DNA of 51,140 nt, taken from NCBI GenBank assembly GCA_945947035.1, contig CAMEXD010000009.1, forward strand, positions 1-51,140, in the 5' to 3' direction. The notes under the pieces were generated by a model, which was given only the letters and a program-made list of their open reading frames with translations, ran no database searches and was not told the origin of the DNA. This stretch comes from an uncultured Mycoplasma sp. GTDB taxonomy: Bacteria; Bacillota_I; Bacilli_A; RF39; UBA660. The translations under genes were made by a program, and so were the position numbers. Every line of letters begins with the position of its first letter. Within the stretch, counting starts at the first letter, position 1. Of this stretch, positions 3,071 to 21,997 are shown piece after piece.

Positions 3071-4513
3071 CTATATTATTAAACTAAATACTGACAAAAC
3101 TAGGATATTTGCTAAAGCTATAGTAATTACTATTTTTAAAGCCCACTTAAACCAAGTTGAATATTCCACCTTAGCAAGTGCAAGTCCACCCATAATAGCA
3201 CCACATGTTGGAGTTATTAAATTTACAAGTCCATTTGCTGAAACTAAAGTCATTATAGTAACTTCTGTACTATATCCTAATTGTGCAGCTAAAGAACCAA
3301 TTATAGGTGAAGATAATGTTGCCAATCCAGAAGATGATGGTACCAAAATTGATAAAACTATATGTAAAACATAATTAAGTGGTACAAACACTAATTCTGG
3401 TAAACGAGATAAGAAATTAGATGCGTTATAAATAATATAATTATCTAAATAAGTTACTGACATTAAGACACTAGCGCCTCTAGCAACTGCTATAATTAAT
3501 ACAACACCAACCATATCATCAGCACCATCTACAAAAGCATCAACAATTCCTTTCTCACCTAATCCATTGATAATTCCTATAACAATTGACATAATTAAGA
3601 ACCATAATGCTGCTTCATAGAACCACCAATTACCAAGTGAAGAACCAGTTAACCATCCTGTAAATTTATCAAAGAAACCAATTCCAAATTCACCCCATGG
3701 AATAAATCCAATAATCATGATAACAAAAGTTAAACCTAAAAGAATTAATGTGATTTTTTGTTTCATTGTTAGTTTTGCAACTTTTTCTTCTTTTAAAGCA
3801 AAATTACCAAATTTCTTTTCGGCAGCTTTTTGTTCTCTTAAAGACAAGAAAGTAGATCCCTTATCTTTTTTGACTTTCATAGCATAATTAATAACAAATA
3901 ATATTGAAATTGTTAAAGTTATCAACCATAAGAAAGTTCCAATTAAAATAACAAGTCCTTGATTTATAGCAACATTTTCAGGTAAAGCACTAATTGCTGC
4001 TCCAGTTGCAAAAGGATTAATTGTAGAACCAAGTACTCCAGATCCTGCTCCTAAAAGAACAATTGCAGATCCAACTAAAGGATCCATACCAGCAGCCATC
4101 ATTGTAGCAGCAAGAAGAACATAAAACCCAACTGTTTCCTCTAACATACCATAAGTAGTTCCGCCTATTGAGAATATTAGCATCAAAATAGGAATTAAAA
4201 TAATCTCATTACCCTTAAGTTTTTGAACTAATACTTTGATTCCAGTCTCAAGTGCTCCTGTTCTATTAAGAATCGCTAAAAATCCTCCAAGAACCATAAC
4301 AAATATTGCTACATCAACCGCAGACTCAAACCCTAATATCGGTGACATCAAAATATCAGATAATGATGCTCCGACAGTTCCACTACCATTAACAATTTCA
4401 TCACCAATAAATTGTGCATTTGGTAGCAAATGTGATAATAATCCTAATCCAAATATTAGAATTAAGATAATTGAAAAAGCCGATAACATTGTCTTTGACT
4501 TTTTCTTAGCCAT
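3071..4513 (-). CDS. arcD: YfcC-family arginine/ornithine antiporter-like permease
   Basis: 480 residues, nearly all hydrophobic, with about 12 membrane segments and a short basic N terminus. Segments such as FSIGGTTYGMLEETVGFY and LVPSSSGLATLSSPIIGSLA are typical of the YfcC/C4-dicarboxylate anaerobic carrier superfamily (PF03606). Members of this family replace the classical ArcD in several arginine deiminase clusters and exchange arginine for ornithine. It follows arcC by one base and is the last gene of the operon. The symbol is given by role and position; the substrate is inferred from the neighbours. Confidence 0.75.
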   Translation of the reverse strand: MAKKKSKTMLSAFSIILILIFGLGLLSHLLPNAQFIGDEIVNGSGTVGASLSDILMSPILGFESAVDVAIFVMVLGGFLAILNRTGALETGIKVLVQKLKGNEIILIPILMLIFSIGGTTYGMLEETVGFYVLLAATMMAAGMDPLVGSAIVLLGAGSGVLGSTINPFATGAAISALPENVAINQGLVILIGTFLWLITLTISILFVINYAMKVKKDKGSTFLSLREQKAAEKKFGNFALKEEKVAKLTMKQKITLILLGLTFVIMIIGFIPWGEFGIGFFDKFTGWLTGSSLGNWWFYEAALWFLIMSIVIGIINGLGEKGIVDAFVDGADDMVGVVLIIAVARGASVLMSVTYLDNYIIYNASNFLSRLPELVFVPLNYVLHIVLSILVPSSSGLATLSSPIIGSLAAQLGYSTEVTIMTLVSANGLVNLITPTCGAIMGGLALAKVEYSTWFKWALKIVITIALANILVLSVFSLII

Positions 4514-4514
4514 A

Positions 4515-5459
4515 CTATTTCCTCCTTTTTATTACTGTACCAGTTTTTCCATTTATTGCTTCGTTTGCTTTTTCTAAAGAACCAATAATAGCTACTTTGT
4601 CAAAAGAATCACGAACAAAATCAATACACGCTTCAACTTTTGGAAGCATACTACCTTTAGCAAAATGACCCTCAGATATATATTTTTCTGCTTCATCCAC
4701 CGTAATAGTATCAAGTGCTACTTGTTTGTCCGTATTGTAGTTTAAATACACCTTATCTACAGCAGTTAATATTAAAAGGATATCAGCATCTATCTCTTTT
4801 GCAAGTAATGCAGCAGAACGATCTTTATCGATTACAGCTTCTACACCCTCTAATAACTCAATCTTATTAGTTTTAATTACTGGTATACCACCACCACCAA
4901 CAGCAATAACAATATTATCATTATCAACTAGTTGTTTTATAATATTCTTCTCGATAATATCAATAGGCATTGGAGAAGGTACTACTCTCCTATAGCCTCG
5001 TCCAGAATCTTCAACAAATTGATAACCCTTTTCATTTTCAATTTTAATAGCTTCTTCTTTGCTATAAAACATTCCAATGGGCTTAGTTGGATTTTGAAAA
5101 GCACTATCACTTGGATCGACCTGAACTTGTGTTATCAAAGTTGCACAATTTTTAACAATGTTTTGTCTTTCTAGTTCATCTTGAATACATTGTTGCAATT
5201 GGTAACCTATATAACCTTGACTCATACTCCCACACTCTGCAAATGGCATTGATGGAGTTTTAGCTTCTCCATTTGAAGAATACTCCATTGCAAGTAATAT
5301 TTGACCAACTTGTGGACCATTTCCGTGAGTAAGAACAATCTTATTTCCCTCTTTTACTAAATTGACAATAATCTTTGCAACATTTTCAAGAAGTAATAAT
5401 TGTTCAGTAGGATTCTTTCCTAAAGCATTACCACCTAAAGCAATAACTATTTTACTCAT
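4515..5459 (-). CDS. arcC: Carbamate kinase
   Basis: 314 residues, the family length. It begins [20 protein letters not shown], and has [34 protein letters not shown] and [10 protein letters not shown], all amino-acid-kinase fold motifs of carbamate kinase, and [20 protein letters not shown] near the end. It converts carbamoyl phosphate and ADP to ATP, the energy-yielding step of arginine fermentation. Two ATGs are adjacent (5462 and 5459). The second is chosen since AGGGA lies 5 bases upstream of it. The start overlaps the end of arcB by 8 bases. Confidence 0.93.
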
Positions 5460-6450
5460 CATCTTCCCTCATAGTGGCATAAACAACTGCTTTAATTGTA
5501 TGTAATCTGTTTTCAGCTTCATCAAATACTTTTGATTTATCTGAAGTAAATACTTCATCAGTAACTTCCATTTCTTTTAGTCCATACTTCTCATAAATAT
5601 CTTTACCTATTGTAGTATTCAAATCATGAAAAGATGGTAGACAATGTAAAAATATAACATTTTCATTAGCATTGTCCATAATTTTTTTATTTACTTGATA
5701 TGGACTAAGTAATTTAATTCTTTCATTCCATACCTCATCTGGTTCACCCATTGATACCCATACATCAGTATAAATTACATCAGCGTTTTCTGAAGCTTTT
5801 AAAACATCTTCAGTCATTTCAATAGTTGCACCAGTTTCTTCAGCTATTTTTCTACATTTTTCCACCAAAGTAGAATTAGGCCATAAATCTTTAGGTCCAC
5901 AAGAAACAAAATGCATTCCCATTTTAGCACAAACTACCATTAAAGAATTAGCAACATTATTTCTAGCATCTCCGAAGAAAACTAATTTGATTCCATCTAA
6001 ATGACCGAAATTTTCTTCAACAGTCATAACATCTGCTAACATTTGTGTAGGATGAAATTCAGTTGTAAGACCATTCCAAACTGGAACTCCTGCATTTTCA
6101 GCAAGTGTTTCCACTATTTTTTGATCATATCCTCTATATTCAATTCCATCATACATTCTTCCAAGAACTTTTGCAGTATCTTCAATACTTTCTTTTTTTC
6201 CCATTTGAGAACTTCCTGGATCTAAATATGTAACTCCCATTCCCAAATCTAAACCAGCAACTTCAAAAGCACATCTTGTTCTAGTTGAAGTTTTTTCAAA
6301 AAGTAAAACAATATTTTTACCTTTTAGATAACGATGTTCAATAGAATTATGTTTTTTATTTTTAAAATCTTTAGCCAAATCTAAAAGATATCTAATTTCT
6401 TCTGGAGTGTAATCCAATAATGTTAAAAAATTTCTATTTCTTAAATCCAT
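5452..6450 (-). CDS. arcB: Catabolic ornithine carbamoyltransferase
   Basis: 332 residues. The carbamoyl-phosphate loop [14 protein letters not shown], the [14 protein letters not shown] segment and the HCLPSFHD motif identify ornithine carbamoyltransferase. Here it runs catabolically, cleaving citrulline with phosphate to ornithine and carbamoyl phosphate, since it lies between arcA (1 base away) and arcC (8-base overlap). The anabolic homologue argF would look similar, but no arginine biosynthesis genes are near. Length and motifs are complete. Confidence 0.93.
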
Positions 6451-6451
6451 A

Positions 6452-7699
6452 CTATTTCAAATCCTCTCTAACAAGTGGCATACTCATACATCTAGGTCCA
6501 CCACGTCCTCTTGATAATTCAGCACTACTCATTTCTAACACTTTAATACCATGTTCTCTTAAAATATTGTTTGTAATATTATTTCTATTATATACTACTA
6601 CTACACCAGGTGCTATACATAAAGTATTAGTTCCATCATTCCATTGTTCTCTTTCAGAAGATGTTTTTTCACCACCACCACAAGCTATTAAAGTAATCTT
6701 TCTTCCTAAATATTTTTCTAATATTTCTTCTAAAGAACCATTGATTTCTTTTACATTCAAATCTTCATCACTATCAGGAATATCTCCTTCGGTAATTTCA
6801 AAAACTTGAAGTGATTCCATAATTCCAGGATGATATGTAAACTTATCATAATCAATTTGGGTAAATACTGTATCCAAATGCATAAAAGCTCTAGATTCAG
6901 GAATATTAAATGCTAATATTGTATCAATATTACAATTTGGATTTTTAAACATATTTTTAGCAAGTAAATCAATTGCTCCAGCTTCAGTTCTTTGTGAAAT
7001 ACCAACTGCAATAATATGATCATTTAAATTAAGAACATCTCCACCCTCGATATGATAAGGTAAATATCTATCATAATATTTTTCTACATTATCTTTAAAA
7101 TCAGGATGATAATTAAATATATATTCAGCATAAATAGTTTCTCTGCTTCTAGTTACTGAATACATTTTGTTTAAAATAACTCCATTACCAGCACTTGCAA
7201 ATGGATCTCTTGTAAAATACAAGTTAGGCATAGGATCTGCTAAAAAATCTGATTCTTCGCTAACCAAATCAACCAATGATTTTTCAACTTCTCTTTTTGC
7301 ACTACTGATTTCTAGAAGTTTTATTCCTTCCATTGTCTTTAAAACAAGTTCTTTCTTGTTTCTAAAACTTTTTAAATATTCAAATACCAAATTTTTATAT
7401 TTTGGAGTTTTTATTCCTGCTTCATATATAAATTGTCTTAAAAACTTATCCAAAATATCATCACTAAGTTCTAATACTTCTGCCATTAAGTCTTCCAAGT
7501 AAAGAACTTCAACACCATTTTCTTTTAAGATATTAGCAAATTCATCGTGTTCCTTTTGTGCTTCAGGTAAAAAAGGAATATCATCAAATAATAGTCTAGT
7601 TAAACTATCAGGTGTTAAATTAAGTAGTTCATTACCAGGTCTATGTAATAATACCTTTTTTAAAGGTGCAATCTCGCTTTTTACATTAATTACACTCAT
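6452..7699 (-). CDS. arcA: Arginine deiminase
   Basis: 415 residues from ATG 7699, which has AAGGGAGA 6 bases upstream; the longer in-frame start at 7717 has no ribosome site. Motifs: LHRPG near the N terminus, [37 protein letters not shown], and [14 protein letters not shown] at the C terminus with the nucleophilic cysteine. It hydrolyses arginine to citrulline and ammonia, giving acid protection and feeding ATP synthesis through arcB and arcC. It is the first gene of the operon; a strong promoter precedes it. Confidence 0.95.
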
Positions 7700-7740
7700 T
7701 TTTTCTTCTCCCTTCATTTAGTAGTTCCCCTACTATTATG

Positions 7741-17628: not shown

Positions 17629-17979
17629 TTAATCTTTTGGTTTAAAGATAAGAGCAAAGATAAAGCTAAAGAATATAGCACTTGTTATTCCTGCTGCTGT
17701 AAAATCAAATACTCCCATAGCAATTCCCATAAAACCAGATTCTATAGTTCTATTCATAGCTCCATGCATAAGTAGATGTCCAAAACTTGTAATTGGAACA
17801 AGTGCTCCTCCTCCAACATGAACGATAATCATATCATAAATATTAAATAAATCTAGAAAAGTTCCAATAACAACAAATAAACTAGTAATATGTCCTGGAG
17901 TTAGTTTAGTATTATCTAAAATAGCTTGAGCAATTAAACATAAAACTCCACAGAACAAAAATGAATAAACGTACATCAT
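17629..17979 (-). CDS. spoVAE: Stage V sporulation protein AE
   Basis: 116 residues, membrane protein with about four helices. PGHITSLFVVIGTFLDLFNI then GGGALVPITSFGHLLMHGAM matches SpoVAE (C-terminal, SpoVAEb type). SpoVA proteins form the channel that moves dipicolinic acid into the spore and out during germination. Its ATG overlaps the TGA stop of spoVAD. Confidence 0.9.
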   Translation of the reverse strand: MMYVYSFLFCGVLCLIAQAILDNTKLTPGHITSLFVVIGTFLDLFNIYDMIIVHVGGGALVPITSFGHLLMHGAMNRTIESGFMGIAMGVFDFTAAGITSAIFFSFIFALIFKPKD

Positions 17980-18971
17980 TTTACCACCTCGAAACTTACA
18001 GCGTGAGCAATTCCTAAAATACTTTGTTTTTGAAATAAAAATGTTGGATTAAATAAAGCACCTGTTGTTATTAATAAAACTTTTTTTAATTTTTTCTCTT
18101 TCATTTGTTTAAAAATATAAGAATAATTAACAAGAGCACTACAAACTGGTCCAGAACCTCCTGCGGTTATTTCTTTTTGTTTAGAAAAATCATAAAGCAT
18201 AGTTCCACAATCATCATAATTTTTTCCTAAAGTCATATTATATTGTTCTTTTAAATAATCTTTCATAACTTCTTTACCAAATATTCCAAGATCTCCTGAT
18301 AAAATAAGATCATAATCATCAACTTTTTCATTTAGATTAGTTAAATGATTATATAAAGTATCACAACATGCTGGTGCCATTGCTGCTCCAACGTTATTAG
18401 CGTCTTTAAAATTAAGATCAACTATTTTACCAACTGTTGATGCTACAACTTTTATATTGCTTTTTTCATTACTTAACATAATACTTGCCCCTCCAGTTGA
18501 TGTGAATGTTGCTGTTTTTGGTTTTGGTGCTCCATATTCAATTGGATTTCTAAATTGTTTTTCACTTACTAGATTACTTGATGTAGTTGTACAAATACAA
18601 TTATTTATTTTTTTACTATCAATAAATGTTGATCCAATTATTATCTGTTCCATTGTTGTTGCACATGCTGTATAAATTCCTAAAAAAGGAATTTTATATT
18701 TTTTCGCGCCATAACAAGATACTGCAATCTGATTAGTTAAATCCCCTCCGATTAATAAATCAATATCTGTATCTTTTTTATTTGTTTTTTTTAGTAAAAT
18801 ATCCACTGCGTCATTAAATAATTTAACTTCTCCTTGTTCAATTGATTCCATTCCAAAATAATAATCATAATATTTTTTATCAAAATAAGAAGATAATTTA
18901 CCATTAGACTCTAAAACCCCAGCTACTGTTACGACATCTTTTACATATACATTATTATATTTACAAGTCAT
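17976..18971 (-). CDS. spoVAD: Stage V sporulation protein AD
   Basis: 331 residues with a thiolase-like fold. GIYTACATTMEQIIIGSTFI, then TATFTSTGGASIMLS and NYDDCGTMLYDF, are SpoVAD motifs. The family binds dipicolinic acid rather than acting as a ketoacyl synthase. It ends with TGA overlapping the spoVAE start, which shows that TGA is a stop in this genome. Length is close to the usual 338. Confidence 0.92.
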   Translation of the reverse strand: MTCKYNNVYVKDVVTVAGVLESNGKLSSYFDKKYYDYYFGMESIEQGEVKLFNDAVDILLKKTNKKDTDIDLLIGGDLTNQIAVSCYGAKKYKIPFLGIYTACATTMEQIIIGSTFIDSKKINNCICTTTSSNLVSEKQFRNPIEYGAPKPKTATFTSTGGASIMLSNEKSNIKVVASTVGKIVDLNFKDANNVGAAMAPACCDTLYNHLTNLNEKVDDYDLILSGDLGIFGKEVMKDYLKEQYNMTLGKNYDDCGTMLYDFSKQKEITAGGSGPVCSALVNYSYIFKQMKEKKLKKVLLITTGALFNPTFLFQKQSILGIAHAVSFEVVK

Positions 18972-18973
18972 AA

Positions 18974-19411
18974 TTAACCTCCTATTAAAAATCTTATAAT
19001 TCCAACAATATATGCTGAAACAATACCATAAAGGATAACACTTCCTGCTAGTTTAAAAATATTACTTCCAATTCCACAAACAAGACCTTCTTTTTTATAA
19101 TCTAATGCTGCACTTTGCATTGAATGAGCAAATCCTGTAATTGGTATTATTACTCCCATTCTTCCAAAATGAACAAAGTTATCAAAAAATCCTAAAGCTG
19201 TAAATAAACATGCAAGAAATATTAATGTTATTATCATAAATACTGACGCATCATTTGATGACACATTAAGAACTTTGGAATAAAACTCTACTAAAAAGTT
19301 ACCAAAAGCACCAATTAAACCTCCTATTACAAAAGCTTTAACTAAATTTAGTAACTTATTTTCATCAGGTTTATGCTTTTCTACAATTTCATTAAATTTT
19401 TTTTCATTCAT
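18974..19411 (-). CDS. spoVAC: Stage V sporulation protein AC
   Basis: 145 residues, with four to five membrane helices and the SpoVAC stretch AFVIGGLIGAFGNFLVEFYS and IIPITGFAHSMQSAALDYKK near the C-terminal half. It is the mechanosensitive part of the SpoVA channel. First gene of a minimal spoVAC-spoVAD-spoVAE operon, which is typical of clostridia and distant Bacilli. A forespore-type promoter lies just upstream. Confidence 0.92.
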   Translation of the reverse strand: MNEKKFNEIVEKHKPDENKLLNLVKAFVIGGLIGAFGNFLVEFYSKVLNVSSNDASVFMIITLIFLACLFTALGFFDNFVHFGRMGVIIPITGFAHSMQSAALDYKKEGLVCGIGSNIFKLAGSVILYGIVSAYIVGIIRFLIGG

Positions 19412-19494: not shown

Positions 19495-20145
19495 TCATTT
19501 AAGATTAGTTCTTAATCTTCTTAATATATCTTTTTCTTTTCTCGATATCATACTTTGAGTCATATTCAAAAGCTTTGATGTTTCCATTTGACTTCTTTCA
19601 TTGACATATCGTTCATTTATAATACTAAATTCTTCTGGACTTAAATTTTCTAAAGCAATTTTTAAATCTAAAATATCACTATCATAATTGTTGTCAACTG
19701 ATGATATTTTATTATATAAATTGTTGTCATTAAAGTCTACTTCGTCTAAACTTTCTACTAAAACTTTAGAATTTATCGCATCAACTATTGTTTTTTCATC
19801 AATCTCTAAAAACATTGCAATTTCTTTCGTACTTGGTTCTCTTTGTAATTTTTGACATAGATAAGATGTTGTTTTTTCTATAACTTCATTTAATTTAATT
19901 GAATCTTTACTTACTTTTAAGGTATTAGATTCTCTTAAATACTTTTTTATTTCACCAGTTATATAAAAATAAGCATAACTAGAAAATTTAGTATTTTTAT
20001 CTTCTTTATAATTTTTATAAGCGTTAATAAGACCCATAACTGCTACTTGATATAAATCATCTTTATCAAAATATCTAGTATATTTATTTATTATTTTATA
20101 AATCATATTCTCATTTTCATAAACTAAACTTGTTAAATCACTCAT
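19495..20145 (-). CDS. sigF: Sporulation sigma factor (SigF type)
   Basis: 216 residues. Region 2 reads DLYQVAVMGLINAYKNYKED followed by FSSYAYFYITGEIKKYLRES; region 3 has LQREPSTKEIAMFLEIDEK; region 4 ends METSKLLNMTQSMISRKEKD and then ILRRLR, the helix-turn-helix of the SigB/F/G group. It is shorter than Bacillus SigF (about 255). Position, between a SpoIIAA-like gene and the spoVA operon, matches the spoIIA-spoVA order and favours SigF over SigG. It should direct forespore transcription, including the promoter 17 bases before spoVAC. GGAGG precedes the ATG. Confidence 0.8.
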   Translation of the reverse strand: MSDLTSLVYENENMIYKIINKYTRYFDKDDLYQVAVMGLINAYKNYKEDKNTKFSSYAYFYITGEIKKYLRESNTLKVSKDSIKLNEVIEKTTSYLCQKLQREPSTKEIAMFLEIDEKTIVDAINSKVLVESLDEVDFNDNNLYNKISSVDNNYDSDILDLKIALENLSPEEFSIINERYVNERSQMETSKLLNMTQSMISRKEKDILRRLRTNLK

Positions 20146-20205
20146 AAATATCCTCCATCCAAAAATATATTAAACTATTTCTATGTCACATTTTTTTGTT
20201 TTTTG

Positions 20206-20541
20206 TTAAATGTTTACTAAATTGAAAACTTTTTTTTCATCTTTTATTTGATATAGGTTATCAAAAATATTTTCATTATAGGAAAAAAGCTTGTTAATTC
20301 CTACAATTATTAATTTTCCATTATTATCCTTTATATTTAAATAATTTTTTATTATAATATTTGTTCCATATTTATCTATATAATCTAATTCTTCTAAGTT
20401 AAGTAATACATACTTTACTCCATTACTTGTTATTAATTTTGTTAAATTATTATCTAACATATTACAAGTATCTCCATTTAATATTCCTTTTAATCTAACA
20501 AATAATATTCCTTTTTGAAAATTCATTTTTATATTTAACAT
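20206..20541 (-). CDS. spoIIAA: SpoIIAA-like anti-sigma factor antagonist, phospho-serine lost
   Basis: 111 residues from ATG 20541; AAAGGA precedes it by 11 bases. STAS fold: FVRLKGILNGDTCNMLDNNL then YVLLNLEELDYIDKYGTNII. In SpoIIAA the last block reads MDSSGLG with the serine phosphorylated by SpoIIAB. Here the two serines are Lys and Tyr, so that switch cannot work. The anti-sigma kinase SpoIIAB, which normally lies between spoIIAA and sigF, is absent: only 60 bases separate the two genes. The role may be structural or vestigial. Confidence 0.7.
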   Translation of the reverse strand: MLNIKMNFQKGILFVRLKGILNGDTCNMLDNNLTKLITSNGVKYVLLNLEELDYIDKYGTNIIIKNYLNIKDNNGKLIIVGINKLFSYNENIFDNLYQIKDEKKVFNLVNI

Positions 20542-20566: not shown

Positions 20567-20590
20567 ATTATAATTTTTATCTTTGTCGAA
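20567..20590 (-). promoter_or_regulatory. Spo0A box and -10 upstream of spoIIAA
   Basis: TTCGACA on the minus strand (20590-20584) is a perfect 0A box, with TATAAT (20572-20567) 11 bases on. The box takes the place of a -35, as at SigA promoters activated by phosphorylated Spo0A. A weaker inverted copy (TTCGATT) lies next to it. Confidence 0.65.
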
Positions 20591-20625: not shown

Positions 20626-20656
20626 TAAAAAAAAGAAAGATTTATTTTATCTTTCT
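20626..20656 (-). terminator. Terminator after the RNase R-like gene
   Basis: AGAAAGAT (20634-20641) and ATCTTTCT (20649-20656) with a 7-base loop; the minus strand continues with eight T. It overlaps the last codons of the gene at 20642. Confidence 0.75.
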
Positions 20657-21997
20657 AGTAATAGGCTTTTCATCAATTTCGAAGAATCTTTTATTATAAG
20701 TTTTTACAAGTTCTTCAAAATTTTCACTATATTTTTCTATTAATTCTTCTTTAGATTTGTTTTTAATATATAAATCATTTATTAGTCTAAGCAAGTTATA
20801 ACCTACAAAAGTAAATGGTTTTAATTCTAGTTTATATCTTTCATGTTCTGCATAATGACCTAGATTAGTACAAGAGTAAAATGCTTTGTTATTGTTTTTA
20901 TTGCAAATAATATCATAGATTATCTTATAATCTTCATATGGTATTCTAAATAAATAATAATTTAAGTTAGCGATTTGATATTCTGCTTCTTTAAAACATG
21001 TTGCCATATGTACTTTGTAAATAAAAGGATAATCATTTTCATAAATATTTTTACCAACAACTTCATTTAAAATATGATTAAAAAGTTTTATATCATCTTT
21101 TAAATTGTTTATCTTTTTAGTATTGCCATAATAATTATTAAGTAATCTTGCTAAATCTGGAATTTTTTTAGTTAAAGTATTTCCTCTTAATGATTCATTT
21201 GATGTTGTTTTATTAAGTGTAAAAGATGGTTTCACTATACTTTTGAATACTTTAAAGTTTTTAACCTTACCATTTTTTTCTACTTCTATTGATATTGTTA
21301 TGCTTGGTCTTTCTTCATTTTCTTTATATGATAAAGCATTTATTATATAAGGATTAAGCATGTTGTTATTCATCATTTCTTTATACAAATAGCTATCCTC
21401 ATAAATAAGATTTAATAAATCAATAATATGAATATTTAAAGTAAAATTATCACTATTCTTTACAATACTATAGCAAGTACCCATTTCATTATAATTGTTA
21501 CTTTTAAGCATAAATACTGGTTCATTTATAATAATTCTATTTTGATTTTTTACTTCTTCAAGCATCAATTGTTTAGTTAGTTTTTCTATCTGTTTATCTT
21601 TTTTATAAGAAATATCTTCTTTTTTTTCTTGCTTACCTAAATTATTAATGCTTTCTATTAAATTAGATTTTTTATTATCGCTCATTTTTCTTTTAGAAAT
21701 ATATTTTTTTAATTCATTTAGTTTTTCTTTTATAATATAATCACTTTTATGATCATATTTTTCACTATTGTACATTTTGTTAAAAAGTCTTACGTAATAA
21801 TCTTTACTAACTACTTCTTTATTTTCAATGTATTCATGACACGAATTTATAAAATGATCTAAAATTACTTCAATTACTGGTTTTTCTTTTAATTCAAAAA
21901 CTTTTTTATGTTTTGTAAACAATTCTTTTAAATAATATTCATATTCTTCATTATTAAGCCAAAACTCAATAATATCATATAAATAATCATGTTTCAT
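20642..21997 (-). CDS. Degenerate RNase II/R-like (RNB fold) protein
   Basis: 451 residues. The N-terminal 150 are charged and helical. From about 165 on it resembles an RNB domain: FTLNIHIIDLLNLIYEDSYL, RPSITISIEVEKNGKVKNFK then VFKSIVKPSFTLNK, and near the end NLGHYAEHERYKLELKPFTF, the position of Y-x-H-F-TSPIRR. The aspartate cluster that binds magnesium in true RNase R (G-x-D-x-x-D-x-D-D-A) is replaced by NNYNEMGTCYSI, so it is probably inactive as a nuclease. It is 14 bases after pnp and likely cotranscribed. Divergence is high, so confirm by structure. Confidence 0.5.
   Translation of the reverse strand: MKHDYLYDIIEFWLNNEEYEYYLKELFTKHKKVFELKEKPVIEVILDHFINSCHEYIENKEVVSKDYYVRLFNKMYNSEKYDHKSDYIIKEKLNELKKYISKRKMSDNKKSNLIESINNLGKQEKKEDISYKKDKQIEKLTKQLMLEEVKNQNRIIINEPVFMLKSNNYNEMGTCYSIVKNSDNFTLNIHIIDLLNLIYEDSYLYKEMMNNNMLNPYIINALSYKENEERPSITISIEVEKNGKVKNFKVFKSIVKPSFTLNKTTSNESLRGNTLTKKIPDLARLLNNYYGNTKKINNLKDDIKLFNHILNEVVGKNIYENDYPFIYKVHMATCFKEAEYQIANLNYYLFRIPYEDYKIIYDIICNKNNNKAFYSCTNLGHYAEHERYKLELKPFTFVGYNLLRLINDLYIKNKSKEELIEKYSENFEELVKTYNKRFFEIDEKPITRKIK

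Follow-up and report, generated by a model that had tools for sequence, protein, structure and literature searches.

A SpoIIAA-type STAS protein kept and rewritten beside sigF in an order of predicted spore formers lacking SpoIIAB and SpoIIE

The spoIIA operon of Bacillus and the locus in the window

In the textbook scheme, gene expression is coupled to asymmetric division by the SpoIIAA/SpoIIAB/SpoIIE/SigF switch. The locus described here shares several features with the Bacillus spoIIA operon, i.e., a SpoIIAA-type STAS protein encoded upstream of sigF, spoVA genes downstream, a Spo0A box upstream and, in some relatives, dacF upstream, whereas the order to which it belongs, one of small and uncultured Bacilli of gut type, has neither SpoIIAB nor SpoIIE, the SpoIIAB-docking face of SpoIIAA is replaced order-wide and, in the genus of the window, the phosphoacceptor serine is absent as well. 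Another non-canonical STAS-only regulator, SypA of Vibrio fischeri (PMC8256260), likewise acts on a protein other than an anti-sigma factor of the SpoIIAB type, but it is still phosphorylated on a serine by SypE, whereas here no kinase was found and the window lacks the serine. Judging from gene content and the published pattern, the order in which the ancestral loss fell is probably RF39 of GTDB, and the absence of spoIIAB and spoIIE from RF39 has already been published, in one sentence of a sporulation gene survey (PMC10868615, Microb Genom 2024) that does not deal with spoIIAA, whether its site, the pairing with sigF or the selection acting on it; the loss of spoIIAB noted in the preliminary description of this locus is real, but not new for the order. 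The open-access papers that were found contain no description of the retained and rewritten SpoIIAA. An order of predicted spore formers with Spo0A, the sigma factor and SpoIIR but without two of the three control proteins indicates that the switch is replaceable, which raises the question of what replaces it, and predictors of spore formation that rely on spoIIAB may misjudge lineages of this kind.

The window, i.e., the whole stretch of DNA that was analyzed (51,140 nucleotides), is contig C9 of a 1.17 Mb MAG with a completeness of 71% (G000). The genes of interest lie on the minus strand, where the spoIIAA-like STAS gene (20206..20541, 111 aa, with IDKYGTN at residues 55–61 as its MDSSGLG site) is followed by the sigF-like sigma factor gene (19495..20145, 216 aa, regions 2, 3, and 4 present), spoVAC (18974..19411, TIGR02838 at 3e-47), spoVAD (17976..18971, PF07451 at 3e-113), and spoVAE(b) (17629..17979, TIGR02839 at 6e-39, over its cut-off). 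The canonical position of spoIIAB is occupied by a 60 nt gap (20146..20205, minus strand) too small for any gene, so that the order initially read, spoIIAA, 60 bases and then sigF with no spoIIAB between, is borne out. A Spo0A box, TTTGTCGAA (20582..20590, plus strand; TTCGACAAA in the reading direction of the operon), lies roughly 45 nt ahead of the STAS start; no other perfect 9-mer occurs anywhere in the window (1 found, 0.28 expected).

The STAS protein (P0001) matches the Pfam family PF01740 (4e-10, over the gathering score) as well as TIGR00377, while its match to TIGR02886 (spore_II_AA; 1e-11, 44.7 bits) remains under the equivalog cut-off of 114.75. Its nearest solved structures are those of SpoIIAA, and in the comparison with 1auz FMDSSGLGVILGRY pairs with YIDKYGTNIIIKNY. 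Its gene sits in a SpoIIAA-type cluster (dacF-spoIIAA-(spoIIAB)-sigF-spoVA); in the window it is followed by sigF and spoVA, and in two relatives (G005 and G025) dacF lies upstream of it. For the sigma factor (P0002), the best match was the SigB/F/G family (1e-42), followed by SigF (1e-37), both under their equivalog cut-offs; the SigF score of 130.2 bits compares with a TIGR02885 cut-off of 321.45 that was reached by 0 genomes of the order and by 0 class outgroups. The same STAS-sigma arrangement is found in a second, independently assembled MAG from this genus (G001, JAQXMG010000092.1, 93% complete), so the arrangement is not an assembly error, and misassembly as the source of the missing spoIIAB is ruled out. 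Directly upstream of the STAS operon, the window encodes a protein of 451 aa in which the RNB (RNase II) domain is partial (20642-21997, minus strand), the gene for which also occurs in the congener but does not adjoin STAS in the other relatives read.

Distribution of SpoIIAB and SpoIIE

The order was sampled with 288 genomes from 102 genera, probably all of them MAGs, of which 245 were at least 90% complete. The preliminary description had called for a search of the genome for SpoIIAB and SpoIIE and for a comparison with relatives, and both agree with its reading of a lost kinase. No genome of the order (0/288, and 0/245 among those at least 90% complete) matched the SpoIIAB model at E ≤ 1e-18; in the genome of the window the model matched only histidine-kinase-like proteins, and in the congener there was no match at E ≤ 0.001. 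In family f1, the ORFs matched by this model have the size of histidine kinases, and the short HATPase frames considered as SpoIIAB candidates in G029, G017, G015, and G014 proved to be split or partial histidine kinases. Incompleteness of the MAGs as the reason for the missing SpoIIAB is ruled out by the 245 near-complete genomes. SpoIIE was above the cut-off in none of the 288 genomes, that of the window included, and four weak sub-cut-off matches covered the phosphatase part only. Of the components of a partner switch, neither the HATPase kinase/anti-sigma factor nor the SpoIIE-type phosphatase was thus found in the order. Both are present in 8/8 class outgroups with an intact spoIIA operon, and in the class outgroups without SpoIIAB, SigF/SigG matches likewise did not rise above those of housekeeping sigma factors. 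The absence of SpoIIAB and SpoIIE is a trait of the whole order and no local accident.

Retention and rewriting of the STAS protein

The STAS gene was detected in 223/288 genomes of the order and a SigF/SigG-type sigma factor in 268/288. In 131 of the 132 loci fetched, the STAS gene stands directly before the sigma gene, with a median gap of 15 nt (maximum 157), and in relatives the two overlap or almost abut, while in the outgroups spoIIAA and sigF are separated by 430–587 nt with SpoIIAB sitting between. The sole exception is a locus of G002 (L248, G002:C28, 766-3263), in which metK lies between the two genes; in addition, 4/35 sampled genera (G009, G014, G016, and G025) have a sigma gene without an adjoining STAS gene, and therefore the STAS-SigF partnership is not strictly required. 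The core of the Spo0A box, TGTCGAA, was located at most 150 nt upstream in 120/132 loci of the order, mostly at −55 to −68. As the box is also found in 5/8 outgroups, Spo0A control of the operon was inherited and is not new. In the ancestor of the order SpoIIAB and SpoIIE were lost, but spoIIAA and sigF stayed together as a compact pair of genes downstream of a Spo0A box.

The median dN/dS in 28 sister pairs was 0.16 for STAS and 0.17 for SigF, and the STAS protein has acquired new near-invariant residues (e.g., E7 in 96% and G11 in 97%, the window itself having Asn at position 7). The STAS protein is no relic, since the purifying selection acting on it is as strong as that on sigF, and spoIIAA is hence not a leftover of the operon. 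In about a dozen sampled relatives, a secreted or membrane protein with no clear Pfam family and a YRxYKEEK-like start is encoded directly upstream of the STAS-sigF operon (e.g., L096 2205-3755, L009 35-1432, L088 168-1328, and L093 4636-5772), a candidate sporulation protein.

The preliminary description took the replacement of MDSSGLG by IDKYGTN, with neither serine, as the loss of the phosphorylation site. This is correct for the genus of the window, in which position 58 is a Tyr, but it does not extend to the order, as among its 132 loci Ser58 occurs in 32 and Ser57 in 13. An order-wide loss of Ser58 is therefore ruled out. At position 58 the other frequent residues are Lys (38), Tyr (14), Ala (12), and Glu (10), with further ones below these, and at position 57 Glu occurs in 38 loci; the outgroups have Ser-Ser at 57/58 in 8/8. 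In the tree of STAS and SigF, the Ser58 forms fall mostly within one clade, where Ala, Asp, Arg, His, Cys, and Thr occur at this position too. Ranked by conservation among the 111 columns, positions 57 and 58 are 102nd and 96th, while D56 is 5th and G59 is 8th. What is gone order-wide is the conserved SSGIGxxLGR face, with G61 kept in 0/132, G65 in 0/132, and R66 in 2/132, the canonical DSSGIGxxLGR having become, for instance, DxxGxDAxLNT. The Asp at column 22, which corresponds to Asp23 of B. subtilis SpoIIAA, a contact with SpoIIAB, was kept in 16/132 (the docking-face residues D23, S57, S58, G61, G65, and R66 follow the alignment numbering, save D23, which is the B. subtilis number). Compared with a SpoIIAA of the usual kind, the protein of the window thus has a Tyr in place of the phosphorylatable Ser58, and neither a cognate SpoIIAB nor the docking face. 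The rewriting of the whole docking face makes a stronger statement than the loss of the serine, and site 58 is unconstrained. Left without a kinase partner, SpoIIAA gave up the whole conserved docking face but remained subject to purifying selection. The earlier conclusion that both halves of the switch holding SigF inactive are missing stands for SpoIIAB, to which SpoIIE has to be added, while SpoIIAA itself, though without the serine in this genus, is retained under selection and has not lost Ser58 throughout the order.

A second SpoIIAA with the serine had been named as a finding that would speak against this reading, and it was encountered only in part, on contig C30 of the same MAG (L028, G000:C30, 1163-4936), where a second STAS-sigma pair has the site IDSYSIK. 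This pair groups with the genus of G023, is most like G023 in its DNA, and is absent from the 93% complete congener; we therefore treat C30 as probably mis-binned. The C30 pair stands behind a dacF that is disrupted in its 5′ part by a large serine recombinase ending at the junction, similar to a skin-type element.

Control of SigF in the order

Spo0A is present in the genome of the window and in most of the family, as is the sporulation marker YlbJ (TIGR02871) in most of the family, while SigG and SpoVAC/AD/AE are kept across it. SpoIIR was found in 35/37 family genomes; in the remaining two (G006 and G034), SigF and SigG are missing as well. Given that Spo0A and SpoIIR are retained, both the input of SigF and its main output persist. 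Just before spoIIR, a conserved promoter-like motif (GWATAA-N14-18-CAMTAT) occurs in 10/20 genomes (L220-L239) against 0.09 expected, for a motif chosen after looking at these sequences, and the genome of the window and its congener have a related GCATAA...CATTAT upstream of spoIIR. The motif is a candidate SigF promoter of the order, which SigF may use. Since SpoIIAB and SpoIIE are gone, yet SpoIIR is kept in 35 genomes with SigF/SigG-type sigma factors, another way of controlling SigF is implied, in support of the initial proposal that SigF is confined by other means, and spore formation in this order of predicted spore formers must start in some other way.

The best explanation, which we put forward tentatively, combines a Spo0A-gated production of SigF with the STAS protein as its phosphorylation-free partner. 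Spo0A would gate the production of SigF, and the STAS protein, acting independently of phosphorylation, would be a dedicated post-translational partner of SigF. Most likely it would bind SigF or the SigF holoenzyme directly, restraining or tuning SigF until some septation cue, after which SigF would drive spoIIR in the forespore and SigE would be turned on in the mother cell. We hypothesize this direct binding from the pairing of the genes and from selection. The modelling of STAS with SigF that had been suggested as a check gave no support for a contact, as AlphaFold2 folded both parts of a natural in-frame STAS-SigF read-through fusion but with no confident mutual arrangement (mean pLDDT 73.8, pTM 0.36), and the mutual information between the two proteins was not above that of clade-preserving shuffles (130 pairs, low power). 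The more specific proposal, that SpoIIAA, once an anti-anti-sigma factor, now regulates SigF directly and independently of phosphorylation, the intervening kinase having been deleted and the two ends of the switch acting on each other, is possible but rather doubtful; if true, it would amount to a new type of sigma factor control and to a new way in which transcription becomes cell-specific during endospore formation.

A new STAS partner other than SigF, for instance a protein of the septum or membrane or a different regulator, is about as likely as SigF itself, and a reading in which SigF owes its confinement to that partner, or else to transcription alone, deserves the same tentative credence as the favored explanation. 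It would fit the want of structural or covariation support for a STAS-SigF contact, the many partners that STAS domains serve (review PMC8256260), and the secreted or membrane protein gene directly upstream of STAS in the relatives mentioned above; however, this gene does not adjoin STAS in the window, and sigF is the only fixed neighbor, no other partner gene being fixed nearby. If SigF were instead governed by Spo0A-driven transcription and promoter selectivity alone, with the STAS gene kept as a relic for translational coupling to sigF, the conserved Spo0A box, the overlapping or almost abutting genes, and the loss of STAS in four of the 35 genera would fit, but the protein sequence of a coupling leader would be dispensable, whereas many STAS sites are near-invariant and the amino-acid-level selection equals that on sigF, and we regard this reading, largely disfavored by the dN/dS values, as improbable.

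A decaying pathway in bacteria that have given up sporulation is similarly unlikely. The genomes are small, SigF/SigG and SpoIIR are wholly lost in G006 and G034, and one tool scored RF39 MAGs as non-sporulating with a 0% sporulation probability (PMC12536801), but this SpoMAG score may be biased because spoIIAB is among the genes common to all its predicted sporulators, and the family keeps Spo0A, SpoIIR, SigG, SpoVAC/AD/AE, and YlbJ, with selection acting on both the STAS and sigma genes. It is very improbable that SpoIIAB is there but was missed through incomplete MAGs, strong divergence or fusion: the genome of the window is only 71% complete, but neither the near-complete genomes (at E ≤ 1e-18) nor the congener (at E ≤ 0.001) gave a match, the family f1 hits to the model were of histidine-kinase size or, where short and inspected, split or partial histidine kinases, and the partner has lost its docking face.

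Elsewhere in the window, a region resembling a mobile element (30071-51140) carries a type I-like methylase, an FtsK-like ATPase, an integrase, two DNA methyltransferases, and a large PHP/ATPase gene, and an arginine deiminase pathway cluster (3071-7717) encodes arginine deiminase, ornithine carbamoyltransferase, carbamate kinase, and a YfcC-type transporter.
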